A stretch of 64,000 bases of DNA from Promicromonospora thailandica (GTDB taxonomy: Bacteria; Actinomycetota; Actinomycetes; Actinomycetales; Cellulomonadaceae), in contig NZ_JAMTCS010000001.1 of assembly GCF_024171955.1 (NCBI RefSeq), positions 558,001 to 622,000 of the forward strand, given 5' to 3'. Shown here one piece after another: positions 6,317-41,144 of the stretch. The notes beneath the pieces were generated by a model that saw only the letters and a program-made list of their open reading frames with translations, ran no database searches and was not told where the DNA came from. A program made the translations under genes and the position numbers. Positions within the stretch are counted from its first letter, which is position 1. The number at the start of each line of letters is the position of its first letter.

Positions 6317-6655
6317 TCACCGCGAGTCCGCACCGGGCTGGAGGAGCCCCCGCAGCGCGCCCTCGTACTCCACCAGATCTTTCTCGACCGTGCTTCGTAT
6401 CAGCTGCGGATCGATGTACTCGTAGGCATGCGCGATGCGATTACGGGTGGACCAGATCGCTTTCCACGTGGACCCGAACGCTCGTTCTCGAGCCTCCTCG
6501 CTCAGCTTCGCAGCCACCTCGATCGAGGCACCCAGCCGGAGGCAGACCGCGTCGAACAGCACGGGGTCGTCCAGGTCACCCCGCACGAGGTACGACTTGA
6601 GGACGTCGAGGTGGTTCAGCGCCGACTCGACATGCCTCTCATCCTTCTCGTTCAC
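6317..6655 (-). CDS. hepT: HepT-like HEPN ribonuclease toxin
   Basis: 112 residues, predicted all-helical. It carries the HEPN catalytic motif RNRIAHAY, which fits RX4HXY: Arg and His for metal-independent RNase activity plus the Tyr that cognate MntA antitoxins modify with AMP. Its start overlaps the stop of the upstream nucleotidyltransferase gene by four bases, the classic MntA-HepT order. The toxin is expected to cleave RNA when unmodified. Assignment to HepT rests on motif and context; the RNA target is unknown. Confidence 0.85.
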   Translation of the reverse strand: MNEKDERHVESALNHLDVLKSYLVRGDLDDPVLFDAVCLRLGASIEVAAKLSEEARERAFGSTWKAIWSTRNRIAHAYEYIDPQLIRSTVEKDLVEYEGALRGLLQPGADSR

Positions 6656-17102: not shown

Positions 17103-18323
17103 GTGGCCCAGACCGCGCGCCCTCGGGTGTCCGCCGCACGGCTCGAGCGCGAGATCGTCGTGCTCGTGTCGAGCGGACGCGCCCGGTCCCGCAAGGAGAT
17201 CGCCGACGCGCTCGGCCTCGCGCCGTCGACCGTCTCCCAGCGCGTGCAGGCGTTGCTCGCCTCGGGCGACCTGGAGGAGACGGGCGAGGGCGAGTCCAGC
17301 GGCGGACGGCGTCCGCGCGCCCTGCGGGTGCCCGGCAGCACGGGCTACCTCGGCGTGGTCGACGTGGGCGGTGCCCACGCCCGCCTCGGCATCCTGCGCC
17401 ACGGCGGCGAGCTCGTCGCCACCACGGAGATCCCGCTCGCGATCGCCGACGGTCCCGAGGCCGTGCTCGCGCAGGCCACGGCCGCGCTGCGCGACCTCGC
17501 CGGCACGGCGGCGGACGGCGGACGGCTGCTCGGCGCCGGCATCTCCCTGCCGGGGCCCGTCGACGTCGCGCAGCGGGCGCTCGACAGCCCGTCGCGCATG
17601 CCCGGCTGGTCGGGGTTCGACGTCGGCTCCTGGCTGGAGGACGCCCTCGGCGTCCCGGCCGTCGTGGAGAACGACGCCAACGCGATGGCCGTCGGCGAGC
17701 ACTTCGGCCCCGCCCGGCGCACGCGGCACTCCGTGTCGGTCAAGGCGGGCACCGCGATCGGCGCGGGGATCCTGGTCGACGACCGGCTGTACCGGGGCGC
17801 CGGCGGCGCGGCGGGCGACATCACCCACACCCGCATCCCGGCCGGCGGCGACACCCCGTGCACCTGCGGCAACCGCGGCTGCCTGGAGACCGTGGCCTCG
17901 GGCGCCGCCCTGGTGCGGCTGCTGCGCGAGCAGGGCTACGACGTCACGGCGACCGCCGACGTGCTGACGCTCGTGCGCGACGCCGACCCCGTCGCGACCA
18001 CGCTGGCCCGCACCGCGGGGCGGCACCTCGGCGCCGCGCTGTGCACGGTGGTCAACTTCTTCAACCCGGGCGCCGTGTACCTGGGCGGCGCCCTGTCCAC
18101 CCTGGAGCCCTTCGTCTCCGCGATCCGGAGCCAGATCTACGAGGGCGCCCACCCGCTCATGACCCGCGACCTGGTGATCGCGCCGTCGGGGCTCGGCCCG
18201 GACGCGAACCTCGTGGGTGTCGGCCGCCTCCTGGAGGACACCCTCGTGCCGCACGCGTTCACCAGGCCGCCGGCCACGCCGCCCGCGATGACCCCGGCGA
18301 TGACCCCGGAAGGAACCCGATGA
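17103..18323 (+). CDS. ROK-family transcriptional repressor
   Basis: 406 residues from the GTG at 17103, preceded by GGAGGAGG. The N-terminal winged HTH (RSRKEIADALGLAPSTVSQRV, about residues 24-50) is joined to a ROK domain with GVVDVGGAHARLGIL, ENDANAMAVGEHFGP and the intact zinc motif CTCGNRGCLE. The ATP-site Gly pattern is degenerate relative to kinases, as usual for ROK repressors. It likely senses a sugar or phosphosugar and controls both its own operon (with the M81 gene) and the divergent transporter operon. Confidence 0.88.
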   Translation: MAQTARPRVSAARLEREIVVLVSSGRARSRKEIADALGLAPSTVSQRVQALLASGDLEETGEGESSGGRRPRALRVPGSTGYLGVVDVGGAHARLGILRHGGELVATTEIPLAIADGPEAVLAQATAALRDLAGTAADGGRLLGAGISLPGPVDVAQRALDSPSRMPGWSGFDVGSWLEDALGVPAVVENDANAMAVGEHFGPARRTRHSVSVKAGTAIGAGILVDDRLYRGAGGAAGDITHTRIPAGGDTPCTCGNRGCLETVASGAALVRLLREQGYDVTATADVLTLVRDADPVATTLARTAGRHLGAALCTVVNFFNPGAVYLGGALSTLEPFVSAIRSQIYEGAHPLMTRDLVIAPSGLGPDANLVGVGRLLEDTLVPHAFTRPPATPPAMTPAMTPEGTR

Positions 18324-19813
18324 CCACCTCGCGCCCCCGCGTCGCGATCGCCGGCATGTCGATCGAGTCCAGCACGTTCTCGCCCCACCGCTCCGGCTGG
18401 GAGGCGTTCACGCTGCGCCGCGGCGACGAGCTGGTGACGCACTACCCCTTCCTCGCCGACGGCGCTCCCCTGCGGCAGGCCGCCGACTGGACCGGCGTGC
18501 TGCACGCGCGCTCCCTGCCGGGCGGCGCCGTGCCCGCCGACGTCTACGAGGCGGTGCGCGACGAGATCGTCGCGACGCTGCGCGCGCAGCAGGCCGAGCA
18601 CGGCCCCTACGACGGGCTGCTCCTGGACATCCACGGCGCGATGACGGTGGTGGGCCGCGACGACGCCGAGACCGACCTCGCGGCGGCGGTCCGCGACGCC
18701 GTCGGCCCTGACACTCTGGTCAGCACCACGATGGACCTGCACGGCAACGTCCCCCGCGCGCTCGCCCAGCTGAGCGACCTCATCACGTGCTACCGCATGG
18801 CACCGCACGAGGACGTGTGGGAGACCCGGGAGCGCGCCGCGACCAACCTGCTCGCGCGGCTCCGGTCCGGCGGGGCACCGAAGAAGGCGTGGCTGCAGGT
18901 CCCGGTGCTGCTGCCGGGCGAGAAGACCAGCACGCGCATCGAGCCCGCGGCCTCCATCTACGCCGAGGTCGCGCGCGTGGCCGGGTCGCCGGGCGTGCTC
19001 GACGCGGCGCTGTGGGTCGGGTACGCGTGGGCGGACGAACCGAGCTGCCGGGCCGCCGTCGTCGTCACGGGCGACGACGAGGAAGCGATCGTGCGCGGGG
19101 CCGAGCGGCTCGGCCGCCGGTACTGGGACGCGCGCGACGACTTCGCGTTCGTCGCTCCCGCGGCCCCGTACGAGGAGTGCGTGGCGGCGGCGCTCTCGAG
19201 CGCCGCCCGCCCGTACTTCCTGTCGGACTCGGGCGACAACCCGACCGCCGGCGGCGCGGGCGACGTCACGTGGACGCTCGCGCGGCTCCTGGCGGAGCCG
19301 GCCTTCGCCGAGGGCGGCGGGAGCACGGCGATCTACGCGTCGCTCCCGGACGCCGGCGCGGCACGTTCGGTGGCCGCGACCTTCGCGGCCGAGGGCGCGG
19401 GCGCCGAGGTCGACGTCGAGGCGGGGGCGCGCGTGGACGACGGCCCGCACGGCCCCGTCCGGCTGCGCGGCGTGGTGGAGCACGCGAGCGACGGCGACCC
19501 TGACGCGGGGATCGTCACGGTCGTCCGCGTGGGTGGGCTGCGTGTGATCCTCACCGAGCGCCGCAAGCCGTACCACCTGGAGTCGGACTTCACGGCGCTG
19601 GGGCTCGACCCGCGCGGCACCGACGTCGTGGTCGTCAAGATCGGCTACCTCGAGCCCGAGCTGTACGACATGGCCGCCGACTGGATGCTGATGCTGACGC
19701 CGGGTGGTGTCGACCAGGACCTCCTCCGCCTGGGCCACCACCGCCTGACGGCCCCGACCCACCCGTTCCACCCCTTCCCCACGGAGCCAGACCTCCGCGC
19801 CGACCTCCTCTGA
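18320..19813 (+). CDS. M81-family metallopeptidase (MlrC-like)
   Basis: 497 residues, the family length. N-terminal IAGMSIESSTFSPHRSG, LLLDIHGAM, STTMDLHGNVP and CYRMAPHEDVWETRERA are the conserved metal-site blocks of the MlrC/DUF1485 family; the C-terminal MlrC domain shows SDSGDNPTAGGAGDVTW. The founding member opens linearised microcystin, so the enzyme probably cleaves a peptide or amide bond in an imported compound. The ATG overlaps the repressor stop by four bases. Cytoplasmic, with no signal peptide, consistent with processing of material taken in by the divergent ABC importer. Confidence 0.88.
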   Translation: MTTSRPRVAIAGMSIESSTFSPHRSGWEAFTLRRGDELVTHYPFLADGAPLRQAADWTGVLHARSLPGGAVPADVYEAVRDEIVATLRAQQAEHGPYDGLLLDIHGAMTVVGRDDAETDLAAAVRDAVGPDTLVSTTMDLHGNVPRALAQLSDLITCYRMAPHEDVWETRERAATNLLARLRSGGAPKKAWLQVPVLLPGEKTSTRIEPAASIYAEVARVAGSPGVLDAALWVGYAWADEPSCRAAVVVTGDDEEAIVRGAERLGRRYWDARDDFAFVAPAAPYEECVAAALSSAARPYFLSDSGDNPTAGGAGDVTWTLARLLAEPAFAEGGGSTAIYASLPDAGAARSVAATFAAEGAGAEVDVEAGARVDDGPHGPVRLRGVVEHASDGDPDAGIVTVVRVGGLRVILTERRKPYHLESDFTALGLDPRGTDVVVVKIGYLEPELYDMAADWMLMLTPGGVDQDLLRLGHHRLTAPTHPFHPFPTEPDLRADLL

Positions 19814-19820
19814 CCCACCT

Positions 19821-20006
19821 GCCGAAGTAGAACCCTGCCGAAGTAGAACCCTGGCGAAGTAGAACTGCAGCGAGATAGAACCAGGGCGAAGTAGAACCGC
19901 AGCGCGCGCCCTGCTTCTATCTCGCCCTGGTTCTATCTCGCCCTGGTTCTATCTCGCTGCAGTTCTACTTCGCTGCAGTTCTACTTCGCTGGTGTTCTAC
20001 TTCGGC
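19821..20006. repeat. Head-to-head array of eleven 16-bp-periodic repeats
   Basis: Five direct copies of GAAGTAGAAC or its variant GAGATAGAAC start at 19824, 19840, 19856, 19872 and 19888. Six inverted copies (GTTCTACTTC, GTTCTATCTC or CTTCTATCTC) start at 19914, 19930, 19946, 19962, 19978 and 19994. The period is exactly 16 bp in each half. Positions 19854-19889 and 19938-19973 are perfect 36-bp inverted repeats. The array fills the whole space between two convergent genes, so it may act as a two-way terminator, but the strict period and two core variants are not explained by that alone. Confidence 0.9.
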
Positions 20007-20020
20007 GGGGTGAGGGTGGG

Positions 20021-21049
20021 TCAGGCGTCGGCGACCAGGGAGTAGAGGTCCTTCGGGTTCTCCGGCTCGGCGATGAGGTCGAGGTGGCCGAGCAGCTCGG
20101 GGGCGTTCTCCGTCACGTCCTGCAGCACGAAGCGCAGCGCGGTCCAGTCCTCCAGGGCGAACCCGACGGAGTCCCAGACCACCAGCTCGTCCGCGCTGCG
20201 ACGGCCCGGTGCGACGCCCGTGACGACCTGCCACAGCTCGGTCACCGGGAAGTCGGGCGCCTGACGCTGGATCTCGCCCTCGATGCGCGTCTGCTCGGGC
20301 AGCTCGACGAAGACGCTCGCGCGCGCCACGGTGGCCGGGTCGAGCTCCGTCTTGCCGGGGCAGTCGCCGCCGATCGCGTTGATGAACACCCCGCCGGTCA
20401 CGTCGGCGTCCTGCAGCACGGTGGCGTTCTGCTTGTCCGCGGTGCAGGTCGTGACGACGTCGGCACCGCGCGCGGCGTCGGCGGCGTCGTCGGCCAGGAC
20501 CACGTCGAAGCCGAGCGCCTTGGCGTGCTTCGCCAGCTTCTCCATGGCGTCGCGGTCGACGTCGAAGACGCGCAGCGTCTCGATGCCGAGCTCGGCGCGC
20601 ATGCCGAGCGCCTGGAACTCGGCCTGGGAGCCACACCCGATCAGGGCGAGCGTCCGCGAGCTCGCCGGGGCCAGGTACCGCGCGGCCAGGGCCGACGTCG
20701 CCGCGGTGCGCAGCGCGGTGAGCAGCGTCATCTCGGCGAGGAACGTCGGGTAGCCGTTGTGCACGGAGGCGAGCATGCCCACCGCGGTGACGGTCTGGTA
20801 GCCGCGCGACGGGTTGAGCGGGTGACCGTTGACCAGCTTGAACCCGTAGGTCTCGGCGTCGGACGTGGGCATGAGCTCGATGACGCCCTCCGCCGAGTGC
20901 GACGCGATGCGCGGCCGCTTGTCGAGCTCGGGCCAGCGCGCGAAGTCGCGCTCCAGGGCGTCGGTCAGGGCGGCGATCGCGGCCTCGGGCCCGCGGCGCG
21001 CGACCCAGCGGGCGGTGGCGGCGACGTCGAGGTACGGGACGGTGGTCAT
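20021..21049 (-). CDS. Ornithine cyclodeaminase family protein
   Basis: 342 residues from the ATG at 21049. Visible family features are the substrate-side RPRIASHSAEGVIELMP and YGFKLVNGHPLNPSRGYQTV, the NAD-binding loop ALIGCGSQAEFQ, and TTCTADKQNATVL with INAIGGDCPGKTELD. Ornithine cyclodeaminase converts ornithine to proline and ammonia; alanine dehydrogenase and other imine reductases share the fold. The start overlaps the stop of the DDAH-like gene by four bases, and the pairing makes ornithine or a related amino acid the likely substrate. Confidence 0.85.
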   Translation of the reverse strand: MTTVPYLDVAATARWVARRGPEAAIAALTDALERDFARWPELDKRPRIASHSAEGVIELMPTSDAETYGFKLVNGHPLNPSRGYQTVTAVGMLASVHNGYPTFLAEMTLLTALRTAATSALAARYLAPASSRTLALIGCGSQAEFQALGMRAELGIETLRVFDVDRDAMEKLAKHAKALGFDVVLADDAADAARGADVVTTCTADKQNATVLQDADVTGGVFINAIGGDCPGKTELDPATVARASVFVELPEQTRIEGEIQRQAPDFPVTELWQVVTGVAPGRRSADELVVWDSVGFALEDWTALRFVLQDVTENAPELLGHLDLIAEPENPKDLYSLVADA

Positions 21050-38167: not shown

Positions 38168-38908
38168 ATGAGCACATCAACCGACAACACCAAGATCGTC
38201 CTCGTCACCGGCGCGAGCAGCGGCATCGGCGAGGCCACGGCGCTCCGCCTCGCGGCCGAGGGTCACCACGTGGTGCTCGGCGCACGTCGCACCGAGCGCC
38301 TGGACGCCCTCGTCGCCCGCATCCGGGCCGACGGCGGCTCCGCGAGCGCCGCGCGCCTCGACGTGACCGACCGCGACGACGTGCGCGCCGTCGTCGACCG
38401 GGTGGTCGAGGAGCACGGCCGGCTCGACGTCATCGTGAACAACGCGGGGGTCATGCTGCTGTCCCGGCTCGACGCGCTGCTGGTCGAGGAGTGGGACCGC
38501 ATGTTCGACGTCAACGTGCGCGGCCTGCTGTACGGCGTGGCCGCGGTGCTGCCGCACTTCCGGCGGCAGGGCGGCGGCCACGTCGTGACGGTCGCGTCGA
38601 TCGGCGCGCACCAGGTGTCCCCGACGTCGGCCGTGTACTCGGCGACGAAGTACGCCGCCTGGGCGGTGACGGAGGGGCTGCGCCAGGAGTCCGACCCGTC
38701 GGTGCGGGTCACGACGATCTCGCCCGGCGTGGTCGAGAGCGAGCTGGCCGAGCACATCTCCGACCCAGGGGCGCGGGAGCACATGGTCACCTACCGCCGC
38801 AACACGATCCCGGCCGACGCGATCGGCCGCGCGATCTCGTTCGCGATCAGCCAGCCGGCGGACGTCGACGTGAACGAGATCATCGTGCGCCCGGCGGCCC
38901 AGCGCTGA
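38168..38908 (+). CDS. Short-chain dehydrogenase/reductase
   Basis: 246 residues, complete. Rossmann motif VTGASSGIGEAT, DVIVNNAGVML, catalytic Ser in VTVASIGAHQ and YSATK Tyr/Lys. VLGARRTERLDAL after strand two favours NADP(H). It belongs to the broad SDR clan of ketone/alcohol oxidoreductases acting on unknown substrate. The divergent MmyB-type regulator probably controls it in response to that substrate or a related xenobiotic. Confidence 0.9.
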   Translation: MSTSTDNTKIVLVTGASSGIGEATALRLAAEGHHVVLGARRTERLDALVARIRADGGSASAARLDVTDRDDVRAVVDRVVEEHGRLDVIVNNAGVMLLSRLDALLVEEWDRMFDVNVRGLLYGVAAVLPHFRRQGGGHVVTVASIGAHQVSPTSAVYSATKYAAWAVTEGLRQESDPSVRVTTISPGVVESELAEHISDPGAREHMVTYRRNTIPADAIGRAISFAISQPADVDVNEIIVRPAAQR

Positions 38909-38911
38909 CCT

Positions 38912-38951
38912 GTCAGACGCTCAGGTCGCCCCAGCGGCCTGAGCGTCTGAC
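38912..38951. terminator. Bidirectional hairpin between SDR and secreted lectin gene
   Basis: GTCAGACGCTCAGG (38912-38925) and CCTGAGCGTCTGAC (38938-38951) form a perfect 14-bp stem with a 12-base loop between two convergent genes. Confidence 0.85.
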
Positions 38952-38963
38952 ATCTGGGTGGGG

Positions 38964-41144
38964 TTACGGGCCCGTCGTCAGGTACGTGACCTGGCGGCTG
39001 CTGTTCACCGTCTCCCCCGTGTTGTTGATGACGCGCCGGATCGTGCCCGTGCCGCCCAGGGACACGGTGACCATGTTGTGGAACCGGACGTTCGGCCGCA
39101 CCGGCACCTCGAAGGCCCGCGCGTTCGCCACCGACGGGTTGACGTTGAAGAACGCGTAGCTGCCCAGCCCCCAGGCCTGGTGGTCGGTCACGGAGTCGGC
39201 CACCTTGTACGCCGCCCAGCCCTCGGTCGAGCCGTTCATGTAGGCGGCCTGGTTCGGCGGGTCGTAGGGCATCTCGTTCTGGTAGAAGTACGTGCGCCCG
39301 CGCTCGCCGTTCCAGATGGTCTGGTACTGCTGGTAGTGCTCGACGAACAGGCCGTACATGGTGACGTCGTCGCCGTTCACGACGAGGCCGTTGCGGCCGG
39401 TGTTGACGGTCCACCCGACGGTTCCGGGGTTGCCGTGGTCGGCCCGCCAGATCCAGGCGTGGTCGCCGATGACGTCGTCGCTGTTGACCTCCATGCTCAC
39501 CACGGCCCTGCCGGCGATCGAGCCACCCACCCGGATGAACACGTCGGACAGCACCGTCGGGTTCGCCGCGTGGTCGGCGGACGAGCCGGCGGGGCCCACC
39601 TGGAGCAGCACGTTCGAGCCGCCGGTCCCGGCGTCGAACATGATGCCCGCGAGGCGCACGCCGTCGACGTCGGCCACGCGCATCGCGTCGATGCCGCCCT
39701 GCGGCACGAAGGTCGCCAGGCCCAGCCCCAGCACCACCGTGTCCGCGCGGTTGACCTGGAGTGTCTGGTTCACCGGGTAGGTGCCTGGGGTGACCAGCAG
39801 GTTCTTGCCCGCGGCGAGCGCCGCGTTCATGCTCGCGGCGGAGTCGCCCGGGCGCACCACGTGGAAGTCGCTGATCGGCAGGGACCGGCCGGCCGGGTTG
39901 CCGTTCGCCCAGGTGGTGCCGCTCGAGCCGGTGCGGACGGCCGGGACGAAGACCCGGTAGGAGCCGTTGTCGTCGACGTACAGGTAGGGCTTCTCGGCCA
40001 CCTTCGGGGTGGTCGCGACGGTCGTGTACGGCGGCGAGGGGAAGCTGTTCGACGGCGCCCCCTGGCTGCCCACGAACACCTGGTTCCAGTTGGAGCCGGT
40101 CCAGCTGCCCATCGTGGAGTTGCGCGTCAGGAACTGCTGCTGGGAGCCGGAGTCGATCTGGCCGTCGATCTTCGAGTCGGCGATGAACCCGCCGGAGGAC
40201 CAGCCGCCGTCGGACAGGGCGAGGCCGCCCCGCAGGTGCATGCGGCGGTAGGGCGCGGCCTGGGAGACGGACCAGCGGTCGCGGCCGTCGGCGGGCGTGA
40301 CGGACAGGCCCTCGGCGGAGCGCCAGAAGTTCTGCGTGGCGTTCTGCGAGCCGTCGGGCCACCAGTCGGCCTCGACGTGCACGTGGCCGTTGATGTTCAC
40401 GTCGTCGGGCACGAGGCCGAGGCCCGCGACCTGCGTGAAGAACCCGACGTTGGCGTCGACGTCGTAGGAGCCCGGGTAGAACAGGAAGGCGTGCCGCTGG
40501 ACGCCGAACTGGTTGGTCTCCTGGGCGTCGAAGACGCTGTTCAGGCGGGACTGGATCGAGGCGTCCGACATGGAGGTGTCGAAGACCGACACGTTGGGCC
40601 CGAGGTCCGGGTTGGCAGGGTCGGGGAGCACGGCGTCGGGGTCGGGCTGCGGCACGGTGCCTCCGCGGTGGGTCCACTTCTGGTTGGCGGCGCCCGTGCA
40701 GGTCCAGAGCTGGAGCCGCGTCCCGTTGGCGGTGCCGCCGCCGGTGACGTCGAGGCACTTGTCCGCGGCCTGGTTCACCAGGTCGCCGGCCGCGGTCAGG
40801 GTCCACCGCTGGCTGGCCAGCGAGGAGAAGCAGTCCCACAGGTGGACGACGGCGCCGTTCGCCGTCGAGCCGTTCGCAACGTCGAGGCACTTGCCGCGGC
40901 CGCGCACGGAGCCGTCGTCCGCGAGGGTCCAGCTCTGGTTGGCGTTGTCCGGCGTGCAGTCCCAGATCTGGGGACGGTTGCCGTTCGCGGTGGAGCCGTC
41001 GGTCACGTCGAGGCAGCGTCCGCTCCCCGAACCGACGATGGTGCCGGTCGAGGCGGCGGACGCGCCGGGCGACGCGACCACCCCCAGCAGACCGGCGAGC
41101 AGGACGGCGCTGAGTGCGCCGACCGCCTTCCGAACAGGTGACAT
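38964..41144 (-). CDS. Secreted protein: N-terminal ricin-type lectin (CBM13) plus beta-helix domain
   Basis: 726 residues. A signal peptide ends near GASAAS (about residue 31). Residues 33-160 form a CBM13 trefoil with three QSWTL/QRWTL/QKWTH repeats and three CLDV motifs. After a Pro/Asp linker, residues about 185-726 look like a pectin-lyase-type right-handed beta-helix with aromatic-rich ends (VEHYQQYQTIWNGERG, YFYQNEMPYDPPNQAAYMNG). Proteins of this kind are found in polysaccharide-degrading actinobacteria, sometimes misannotated as adenylyl cyclase. A glucan hydrolase or lyase role is likely; the exact CAZy family is not assigned. It shares the CBM13 module with the GH16 glucanase at 9 kb. 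Confidence 0.8.
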   Translation of the reverse strand: MSPVRKAVGALSAVLLAGLLGVVASPGASAASTGTIVGSGSGRCLDVTDGSTANGNRPQIWDCTPDNANQSWTLADDGSVRGRGKCLDVANGSTANGAVVHLWDCFSSLASQRWTLTAAGDLVNQAADKCLDVTGGGTANGTRLQLWTCTGAANQKWTHRGGTVPQPDPDAVLPDPANPDLGPNVSVFDTSMSDASIQSRLNSVFDAQETNQFGVQRHAFLFYPGSYDVDANVGFFTQVAGLGLVPDDVNINGHVHVEADWWPDGSQNATQNFWRSAEGLSVTPADGRDRWSVSQAAPYRRMHLRGGLALSDGGWSSGGFIADSKIDGQIDSGSQQQFLTRNSTMGSWTGSNWNQVFVGSQGAPSNSFPSPPYTTVATTPKVAEKPYLYVDDNGSYRVFVPAVRTGSSGTTWANGNPAGRSLPISDFHVVRPGDSAASMNAALAAGKNLLVTPGTYPVNQTLQVNRADTVVLGLGLATFVPQGGIDAMRVADVDGVRLAGIMFDAGTGGSNVLLQVGPAGSSADHAANPTVLSDVFIRVGGSIAGRAVVSMEVNSDDVIGDHAWIWRADHGNPGTVGWTVNTGRNGLVVNGDDVTMYGLFVEHYQQYQTIWNGERGRTYFYQNEMPYDPPNQAAYMNGSTEGWAAYKVADSVTDHQAWGLGSYAFFNVNPSVANARAFEVPVRPNVRFHNMVTVSLGGTGTIRRVINNTGETVNSSRQVTYLTTGP

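Follow-up and report, generated by a model that had tools for sequence, protein, structure and literature searches.

A dispersed 16-bp-periodic head-to-head repeat array at gene 3' ends in Promicromonospora, probably a bidirectional gene-end hairpin

What does a strictly periodic array of short repeats, turned head to head between two convergent genes, do in a bacterial genome? The question is raised by a 64-kb stretch of DNA (contig C1, positions 558001-622000) from a soil bacterium of the genus Promicromonospora, the whole of which is called the window here; its genome, G000, is the host genome. A prediction made from the letters of the window had described the array and offered as alternatives a REP-like dispersed element, a structured RNA and an array of protein-binding sites.

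Architecture of the array

The array and its two neighbouring genes comprise the following features, given in window coordinates.

18320..19813, + strand: left convergent gene, M81 metallopeptidase / MlrC (PF07364, PF07171)
19821..20006, no strand: whole head-to-head array, with an outer GCC...GGC clamp
19824..19897, + strand: left arm, five exact cores of 16-bp period (GAAGTAGAAC four times, GAGATAGAAC once)
within 19824..19897, + strand: left-arm linkers CCTGCC, CCTGGC, TGCAGC and CAGGGC
19854..19889, + strand: perfect 36-bp inverted match with 19938-19973
19898..19913, no strand: GC-rich centre or loop region of 16 bp, CGCAGCGCGCGCCCTG
19914..20003, - strand: right arm of six inverted cores, with one mismatch in the innermost (19914-19923)
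20021..21049, - strand: right convergent gene, ornithine cyclodeaminase family (PF02423)

The two genes converge on the array, as predicted, with their stops at 19813 (+) and 20021 (-); the TGA of the M81/MlrC gene lies 10 bp upstream of the first core and the stop of the ornithine cyclodeaminase gene 17 bp past the last. Each unit follows the plan GC-GARRTAG-NNN-linker and occupies 16 bp, which is the core-to-core spacing in the left and right arm alike, with direct cores starting at 19824, 19840, 19856, 19872 and 19888 and exact inverted cores at 19930, 19946, 19962, 19978 and 19994. The original prediction spoke of five direct and six inverted copies every 16 bp; the counts and the period stand, while the sixth inverted copy is degenerate by its one mismatch. 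The flip of orientation across a 16-bp GC-rich centre, the two core variants and the perfect pairing of 36 bp between the arms were all recovered as described, the 36 bp being the longest perfect inverted match and the outer linkers being partly mismatched between the arms.

Neither the number of cores nor the stability of the fold is matched by shuffled sequence. The window holds 10 exact cores, whereas 100 dinucleotide shuffles average 0.03, and the folding energy of 19791-20045 is -174 kcal/mol as against -93.7 ± 5.1 kcal/mol in 200 such shuffles (z = -15.7), the stem reaching -174.2 and -174.6 kcal/mol on the two strands. The models of Rfam 15 gave no match within the window at gathering thresholds. 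The TAG triplets of the left arm occupy all three reading frames, since 16 leaves a remainder of 1 on division by 3 and three units therefore supply a TAG in every frame.

Dispersion and gene-end placement

Uniqueness to this locus and absence from relatives had been named beforehand as the result that would tell against the interpretation and point to a local product of slippage. What was found instead is 191 tandem core pairs (100 + 91) in the 5.38-Mb host genome, where a reversed control pattern gave none, and tandem pairs in eight further genomes of the genus. Slippage at a unique locus is thus rejected, since the array is dispersed through the genome. Exact cores number 309 in the host genome (10 for the reversed control), only four of the first 100 of these being isolated single cores, and a pattern for the palindromic centre has 63 forward matches, in which some arrays are counted twice. 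At least 34 further intact head-to-head arrays were identified in 33 fetched stretches spanning contigs C1-C7 and C9-C11, a sample rather than a full census, so that in all 36 array sites are recorded over 34 sampled stretches on 10 contigs. Arms contain two to six units, degenerate ones included, and the period of exact cores within arms is 16 bp save for one step of 17 bp. Two other identities can be set aside on these numbers. A DNA uptake sequence would be expected to have some 1000 copies or more, many of which stand singly, as against 309 cores that are seldom single, and a parS-like partition or origin array is expected in one or a few clusters, as against 36 sites on 10 contigs.

Beyond the host, the array family is apparently restricted to the genus. 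Tandem pairs of the AAC-type core occur in nine of 99 genomes (13 of the genus, the host included, and 86 others), all nine belonging to Promicromonospora, with copy numbers of 242 in G009, 94 in G005, 72 in G006, 39 in G011, 10 in G003, 8 in G004 and a single pair each in G010 and G012; the same pattern search gave none in G001, G002, G007 and G008. An AAC core throughout the genus, as might have been supposed, is therefore wrong, with the pair absent in four of 13 genomes, among them G008, whose arrays are of another type (TCA, below). Among 396 genomes drawn from the order of the host, a draw that held no other Promicromonospora, the pattern was present in the host genome only. In a collection of named genomes, whose stretches come in part from the same genomes as G009, G011, G004 and G003, at least 93 stretches match, and the 80 listed are all from Promicromonospora (P. 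panici, P. soli, P. sukumoe, P. iranensis and sp. AC04). A 37.6-kb viral contig from IMG/VR with unassigned host (L139) has copies of GAAGTAGAAC at 507-564, 1783-1808 and 6350-6401; as these are direct copies only, 16 or 21 bp apart and with other spacers, it was set aside as a carrier of the array.

The copies lie at gene ends. By a purpose-written, simple codon-usage gene caller rather than an annotation, 29 of 37 host entries (the window array, 34 other intact arrays and both halves of a single split array) are convergent and eight tandem, that is, between co-directed genes, with none in a divergent gap and none inside a gene. Of the alternatives listed in the prediction, the dispersed character is correct: the genome contains many copies at gene 3' ends, mostly between convergent genes. 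Array-free neighbour pairs, 181 in number and drawn from the window and the array-centred stretches alone, include 23 convergent and 36 divergent ones (Fisher p = 5e-15 and 0.001, respectively), and several of these 23 convergent pairs without an array bear another long stem. In the named relatives 46 of 68 arrays are convergent, 22 tandem and none divergent, and the TCA-type arrays of G008, G004 and G012 divide into 10 convergent and 10 tandem among the 20 for which both neighbours were called. Gene ends lie within 30 bp of the array in 63 of 66 cases in the host, 101 of 114 in named relatives and 28 of 32 in the TCA-type stretches of G008, G004 and G012; the median distance from gene end to first core is 11 bp in the host and 12 bp in named relatives. 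At 13 of 66 host gene ends and 22 of 114 others the stop codon is itself a TAG within the array, that of the first core being the one used in 10 and 20 of these, respectively.

Arm symmetry, dialects and turnover at orthologous sites

Within an array, one arm is more like its partner than it is like the arms of other arrays or the arms found at that site in relatives. Linkers of equal depth in the two arms agree at 0.759 within arrays and 0.555 between arrays, and none of 2000 permutations reached the within-array value; linker agreement is perfect in 49 of 110 arrays and imperfect in 61. For the core variants of 34 host arrays, agreement between arms is 0.745, as against a permuted mean of 0.559 and a maximum of 0.713, and 26 of 103 degenerate cores face an identical degenerate core in the opposite arm; arrays of identical units are left out of the linker and core comparison, which uses 34 of the 35 intact host arrays. 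At 13 site-checked orthologous pairs, comparing the host with named relatives, arm agreement is 0.835 within an array and 0.577 between species (p = 1e-4), these being means of 26 values each in which the host array L152 enters two of the 13 pairs. Left out of the 13 as lying at another gene end were L143/L060, L149/L056, L149/L125 and L151/L106, and L151/L267 also as a different site. Adding five more pairs gives 0.822 within and 0.621 between for the 17 used, one having been skipped for want of a left arm; L283 duplicates L082 and was not counted.

Covariation gives the same picture at the level of single positions. When 14 arrays that share a single geometry are aligned without gaps, pairing is seen in 97.2% of the 574 cells. 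Two-sided changes number 18 pairs and 60 cells (9.6 and 16.7 when shuffled, at most 5 and 11 when slid), with three cells changed on one side only and 16 cells unpaired; the 14 arrays were picked for exact cores, so that the core columns vary little by selection. Together, arm agreement and covariation strongly support a paired stem. The scarcity of one-sided intermediates fits a stem required on both strands, since a G-U pair on one transcript is an A-C mismatch on the other, but fits equally well a DNA-level correction of the palindrome that involves no RNA function. In a sub-family of arrays (L144, L146, L153, L155, L164, L166, L170 and others) the centre measures 34 bp, in most cases around GCTGATCAGC, and its flanks vary jointly on the two arms.

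Variation between species centres on the triplet that follows GARRTAG. G008, the sister of the host on a single-gene tree (support 100/99), contains no tandem AAC pair, yet has 171 GCGARRTAG pairs of equal 16-bp period; in 13 fetched stretches its units carry at the AAC position TCA (75 units), ACA (6), TCG (6) or others (5). These units share the linkers CGTG, TGCA, CAGG, TCTG and CCTG. GARRTAGTCA is absent from 274 kb of host stretches, all of them array stretches, and GARRTAGAAC from 78 kb of G008 array stretches. These dialects are typical of species without being exclusive to them: G004 has both AAC and TCA arrays (the AAC ones having been fetched deliberately, so that their share is not a frequency), the three arrays fetched from G012 are TCA-type, and in G009, where the matches listed are mainly AAC, one or more TCA-type arrays occur. 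AAC and TCA units do not stand together in any of 79 arrays; two G008 arrays were flagged as mixed only because of a TAC triplet where the arms meet. At seven host sites the orthologous array is TCA-type, three in G008 (host L153, L154 and L155), two in G004 (L164 and L168) and two in G012 (L160 and L172). In a mismatch-tolerant extension one of 116 TCA-type units is altered within GARRTAG, a per-position count to be read qualitatively because it is anchored on exact cores and omits arms of identical 12-letter units; the other counts of TCA-type units took GARRTAG as invariant in the search itself.

Comparison of orthologous sites shows a turnover of hairpins. At the window site all 13 Promicromonospora genomes have a long predicted hairpin, and the host alone has the array. 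In G001 (L184) this site is occupied by three successive hairpins whose shared motif is CCACTGACTC...GAGTCAGTGG, a further design of repeated type. At a second site, flanked by peptidase-like genes that we take to be pepO and pepN, G009 has an array, the host and G008 have split arrays and the remaining ten genomes have other hairpins. A third site has arrays in the host, G005, G006 and G009, an array of the other dialect in G004, other hairpins in G001, G002, G003, G007, G010 and G011, and no evident hairpin in G008 and G012. Of the other hairpins, two belong to dispersed families of their own, one with 43 copies in G006, 40 in G012 and 33 in G004, the other with 66 in G009 and 45 in G005; the patterns of both are absent from the host genome. 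Unrelated hairpin families thus occupy equivalent gene ends in different species. For 12 array sites of the host, a sampled named relative also bears an array at the orthologous position. A second palindrome of the window, TGTCAGACG..CAGGTC... at 38908-38964, recurs in the host stretch L168 (280-329), between convergent genes, and in G010 (L216) inside a longer stem, and is possibly another dispersed gene-end hairpin family.

The split array of the host and G008 has its arms about 1.25 kb apart with a gene between them (L140 3003-4250, that is, G000 C1 167102-168349; L203 in G008). This gene encodes 348 residues and has hairpins of its own; as Pfam yields no family for it, an initial assignment to the abortive-infection type was dropped. 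All units of the two arms are AAC in one genome and TCA in the other. The insert products of the two genomes are 69% identical, as against more than 90% for the neighbours, so that the split array is by itself no proof of a switch of both arms after the split; by this comparison the insert gene may evolve rapidly or may have been gained on two occasions.

Candidate functions of the gene-end hairpin

The reading that the evidence favours, and that is probably correct, is that the array is a modular bidirectional 3'-end hairpin without a U-tract, which ends or fixes both transcripts and insulates the two genes, the termination itself being what we infer from placement and pairing. Either convergent transcript would fold its purine-rich arm onto its pyrimidine-rich arm to give one very long stem beginning about 10 nt past the stop codon, and this stem would end or fix the 3' ends of both transcripts as a two-way terminator or 3'-end barrier, shielding the facing genes from each other. 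As one unit is like the next, several registers of pairing are open to the arms, and units can be gained or lost without loss of the hairpin; such gain and loss would probably occur by slippage, with pairing persisting throughout. The TAGs of the cores, present in three frames over three units, would halt ribosomes that overrun the gene end. A canonical Rho-independent terminator is rejected, because the GC-rich stem just downstream of the gene is present but the U-tract is lacking (TTTT in one of 223 array flanks of 20 nt); a palindromic stem between convergent genes, as expected of a bidirectional terminator without U residues, is present in the 29 convergent host arrays. The original prediction had argued that a simple terminator needs neither such a period nor two core types. 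The point is fair, but gene context, the direct neighbourhood of stop codons and the fact that relatives have unrelated hairpins at these sites suggest a terminator-like role nonetheless.

Several observations count against termination as the whole account. Selection on an RNA fold would predict an advantage of the transcribed strand in tandem arrays, whereas that strand folds better in 17 of 28 (p = 0.39), no preference. Half of the classifiable TCA-type arrays are tandem, linkers are imperfectly matched in 61 of 110 arrays, and the matching of degenerate cores extends to only 26 of 103. Moreover, a plain hairpin leaves unexplained the conserved core, the shared set of linkers and the dialects. 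The conservation of GARRTAG with its dialect triplet would be accounted for by a stop-codon cassette, and likewise by a protein reader or by a homogenising copying mechanism. One possible, though doubtful, extension is that these genome-wide modular hairpins combine GARRTAG with a species triplet as a dialect switched in concert in both arms, even in the array split by about 1.25 kb, the units being read or copied in trans through a co-evolving reader or through reseeding by a homogenising copying mechanism. The TCA-type array of G009, and the confinement of the host TCA check to array stretches, lower the odds of such concerted switching.

Among the rival explanations, a DNA-level binding array, in which a nucleoid, gyrase-like or other topology protein reads GARRTAG-AAC/TCA every 16 bp where convergent transcription piles up supercoils, would make sense of a core conserved beyond the need of the stem (the single alteration among 116 TCA-type units), of fetched G008 arrays that are all TCA-type, as expected of a co-evolving reader, and of tandem contexts without strand preference. 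It is nevertheless unlikely, since isolated single cores are rare, a protein requires no match of linkers between arms, yet linkers tend to match, and relatives carry unrelated, core-free hairpins at the same sites. Stabilisation or processing of the 3' end, by a stem that blocks 3' exonucleases or is cut as double-stranded RNA with termination further on (for example by Rho), is consistent with the very high stability of the stems (a median of -95.9 kcal/mol for 99 arrays, taking the better strand of each), with the missing U-tract and with the median position in the host of 11 nt past the stop. Stabilising alone does not explain the preference for convergent pairs, and this reading is very improbable.

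REP, BIME and REPIN elements are dispersed, extragenic, palindromic, present in many copies and uneven between relatives, and the arrays share all of these properties, so that the predicted REP-like character holds in the broad sense. In the strict sense it does not: no RAYT transposase (Y1, PF01797) was found in any of the 13 Promicromonospora genomes by a search that matched five of 14 control genomes, and the 16-bp tandem modules in each arm and the placement at gene 3' ends differ from these elements. A palindromic repeat, selfish or neutral, that spreads its own copies to gene ends, is kept uniform through slippage and gene conversion and is merely tolerated at 3' ends could produce the uneven dispersal between species (0 to 242 tandem AAC pairs), the complete separation of AAC and TCA units among arrays even though G004 has both kinds, and the two further dispersed hairpin families at the gene ends of relatives. 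This explanation appears quite unlikely, given the missing transposase (in a search limited to the Y1 type), the absence of arrays from divergent gaps, which lie equally outside genes and make up 36 of the 181 background pairs, and the 12 host sites for which a relative has an array at the orthologous place.

For the favoured gene-end hairpin, the closest parallel in logic is that of the hairpin terminators formed by DNA uptake sequences. In Neisseriaceae and Pasteurellaceae, inverted pairs of these sequences (DUS and USS) are described as tail-to-tail gene-end terminators in the part of the source consulted (PMC1852404), and the consulted part of a second describes species dialects around a fixed core and ties inverted pairs to terminators (PMC3630211). 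The Promicromonospora arrays likewise have a genus-specific motif of about 10 bp, inverted pairs, tail-to-tail gene ends and dialects around a fixed core. Unlike the uptake sequences, the motif stands in 16-bp tandem runs in both arms, seldom singly, and whereas the DUS dialects are reported in that part to be congruent with phylogeny, the host and G008, single-gene sisters, differ in dialect. In Streptomyces clavuligerus, Term-seq has mapped highly structured ends lacking U residues as well as bidirectional ends (PMC8269248, consulted in part); the arrays resemble these in having a GC-rich, U-less stem, and some Streptomyces ends are common to facing genes. The Streptomyces ends are not described as a repeated modular family in that portion of the source, and they are mapped on RNA, whereas the Promicromonospora arrays are known from sequence. 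Stem-loops generally favour convergent gaps, according to the consulted section of another paper (PMC1590033). The TAACTGA repeats of Beggiatoaceae (PMC4679880, likewise in part) are short, intergenic and supply stops in all three frames; those repeats are mostly direct and upstream of start codons, and the Promicromonospora arrays are inverted and at 3' ends.

Neither bidirectional terminators nor dispersed palindromes are new in themselves. For a periodic hairpin of interchangeable modules with co-evolving arms, dialects and unrelated families at the same sites, no published account was found in the open-licence literature, and a literature search with the letters of the core returned, among the matches listed, no title on bacterial gene ends. 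The arrays provide a natural, countable system for the spread of gene-end elements and for the upkeep of palindrome symmetry. They could show whether the conserved cores of terminators are read by proteins, and their modules could serve as graded two-way terminators in GC-rich hosts.
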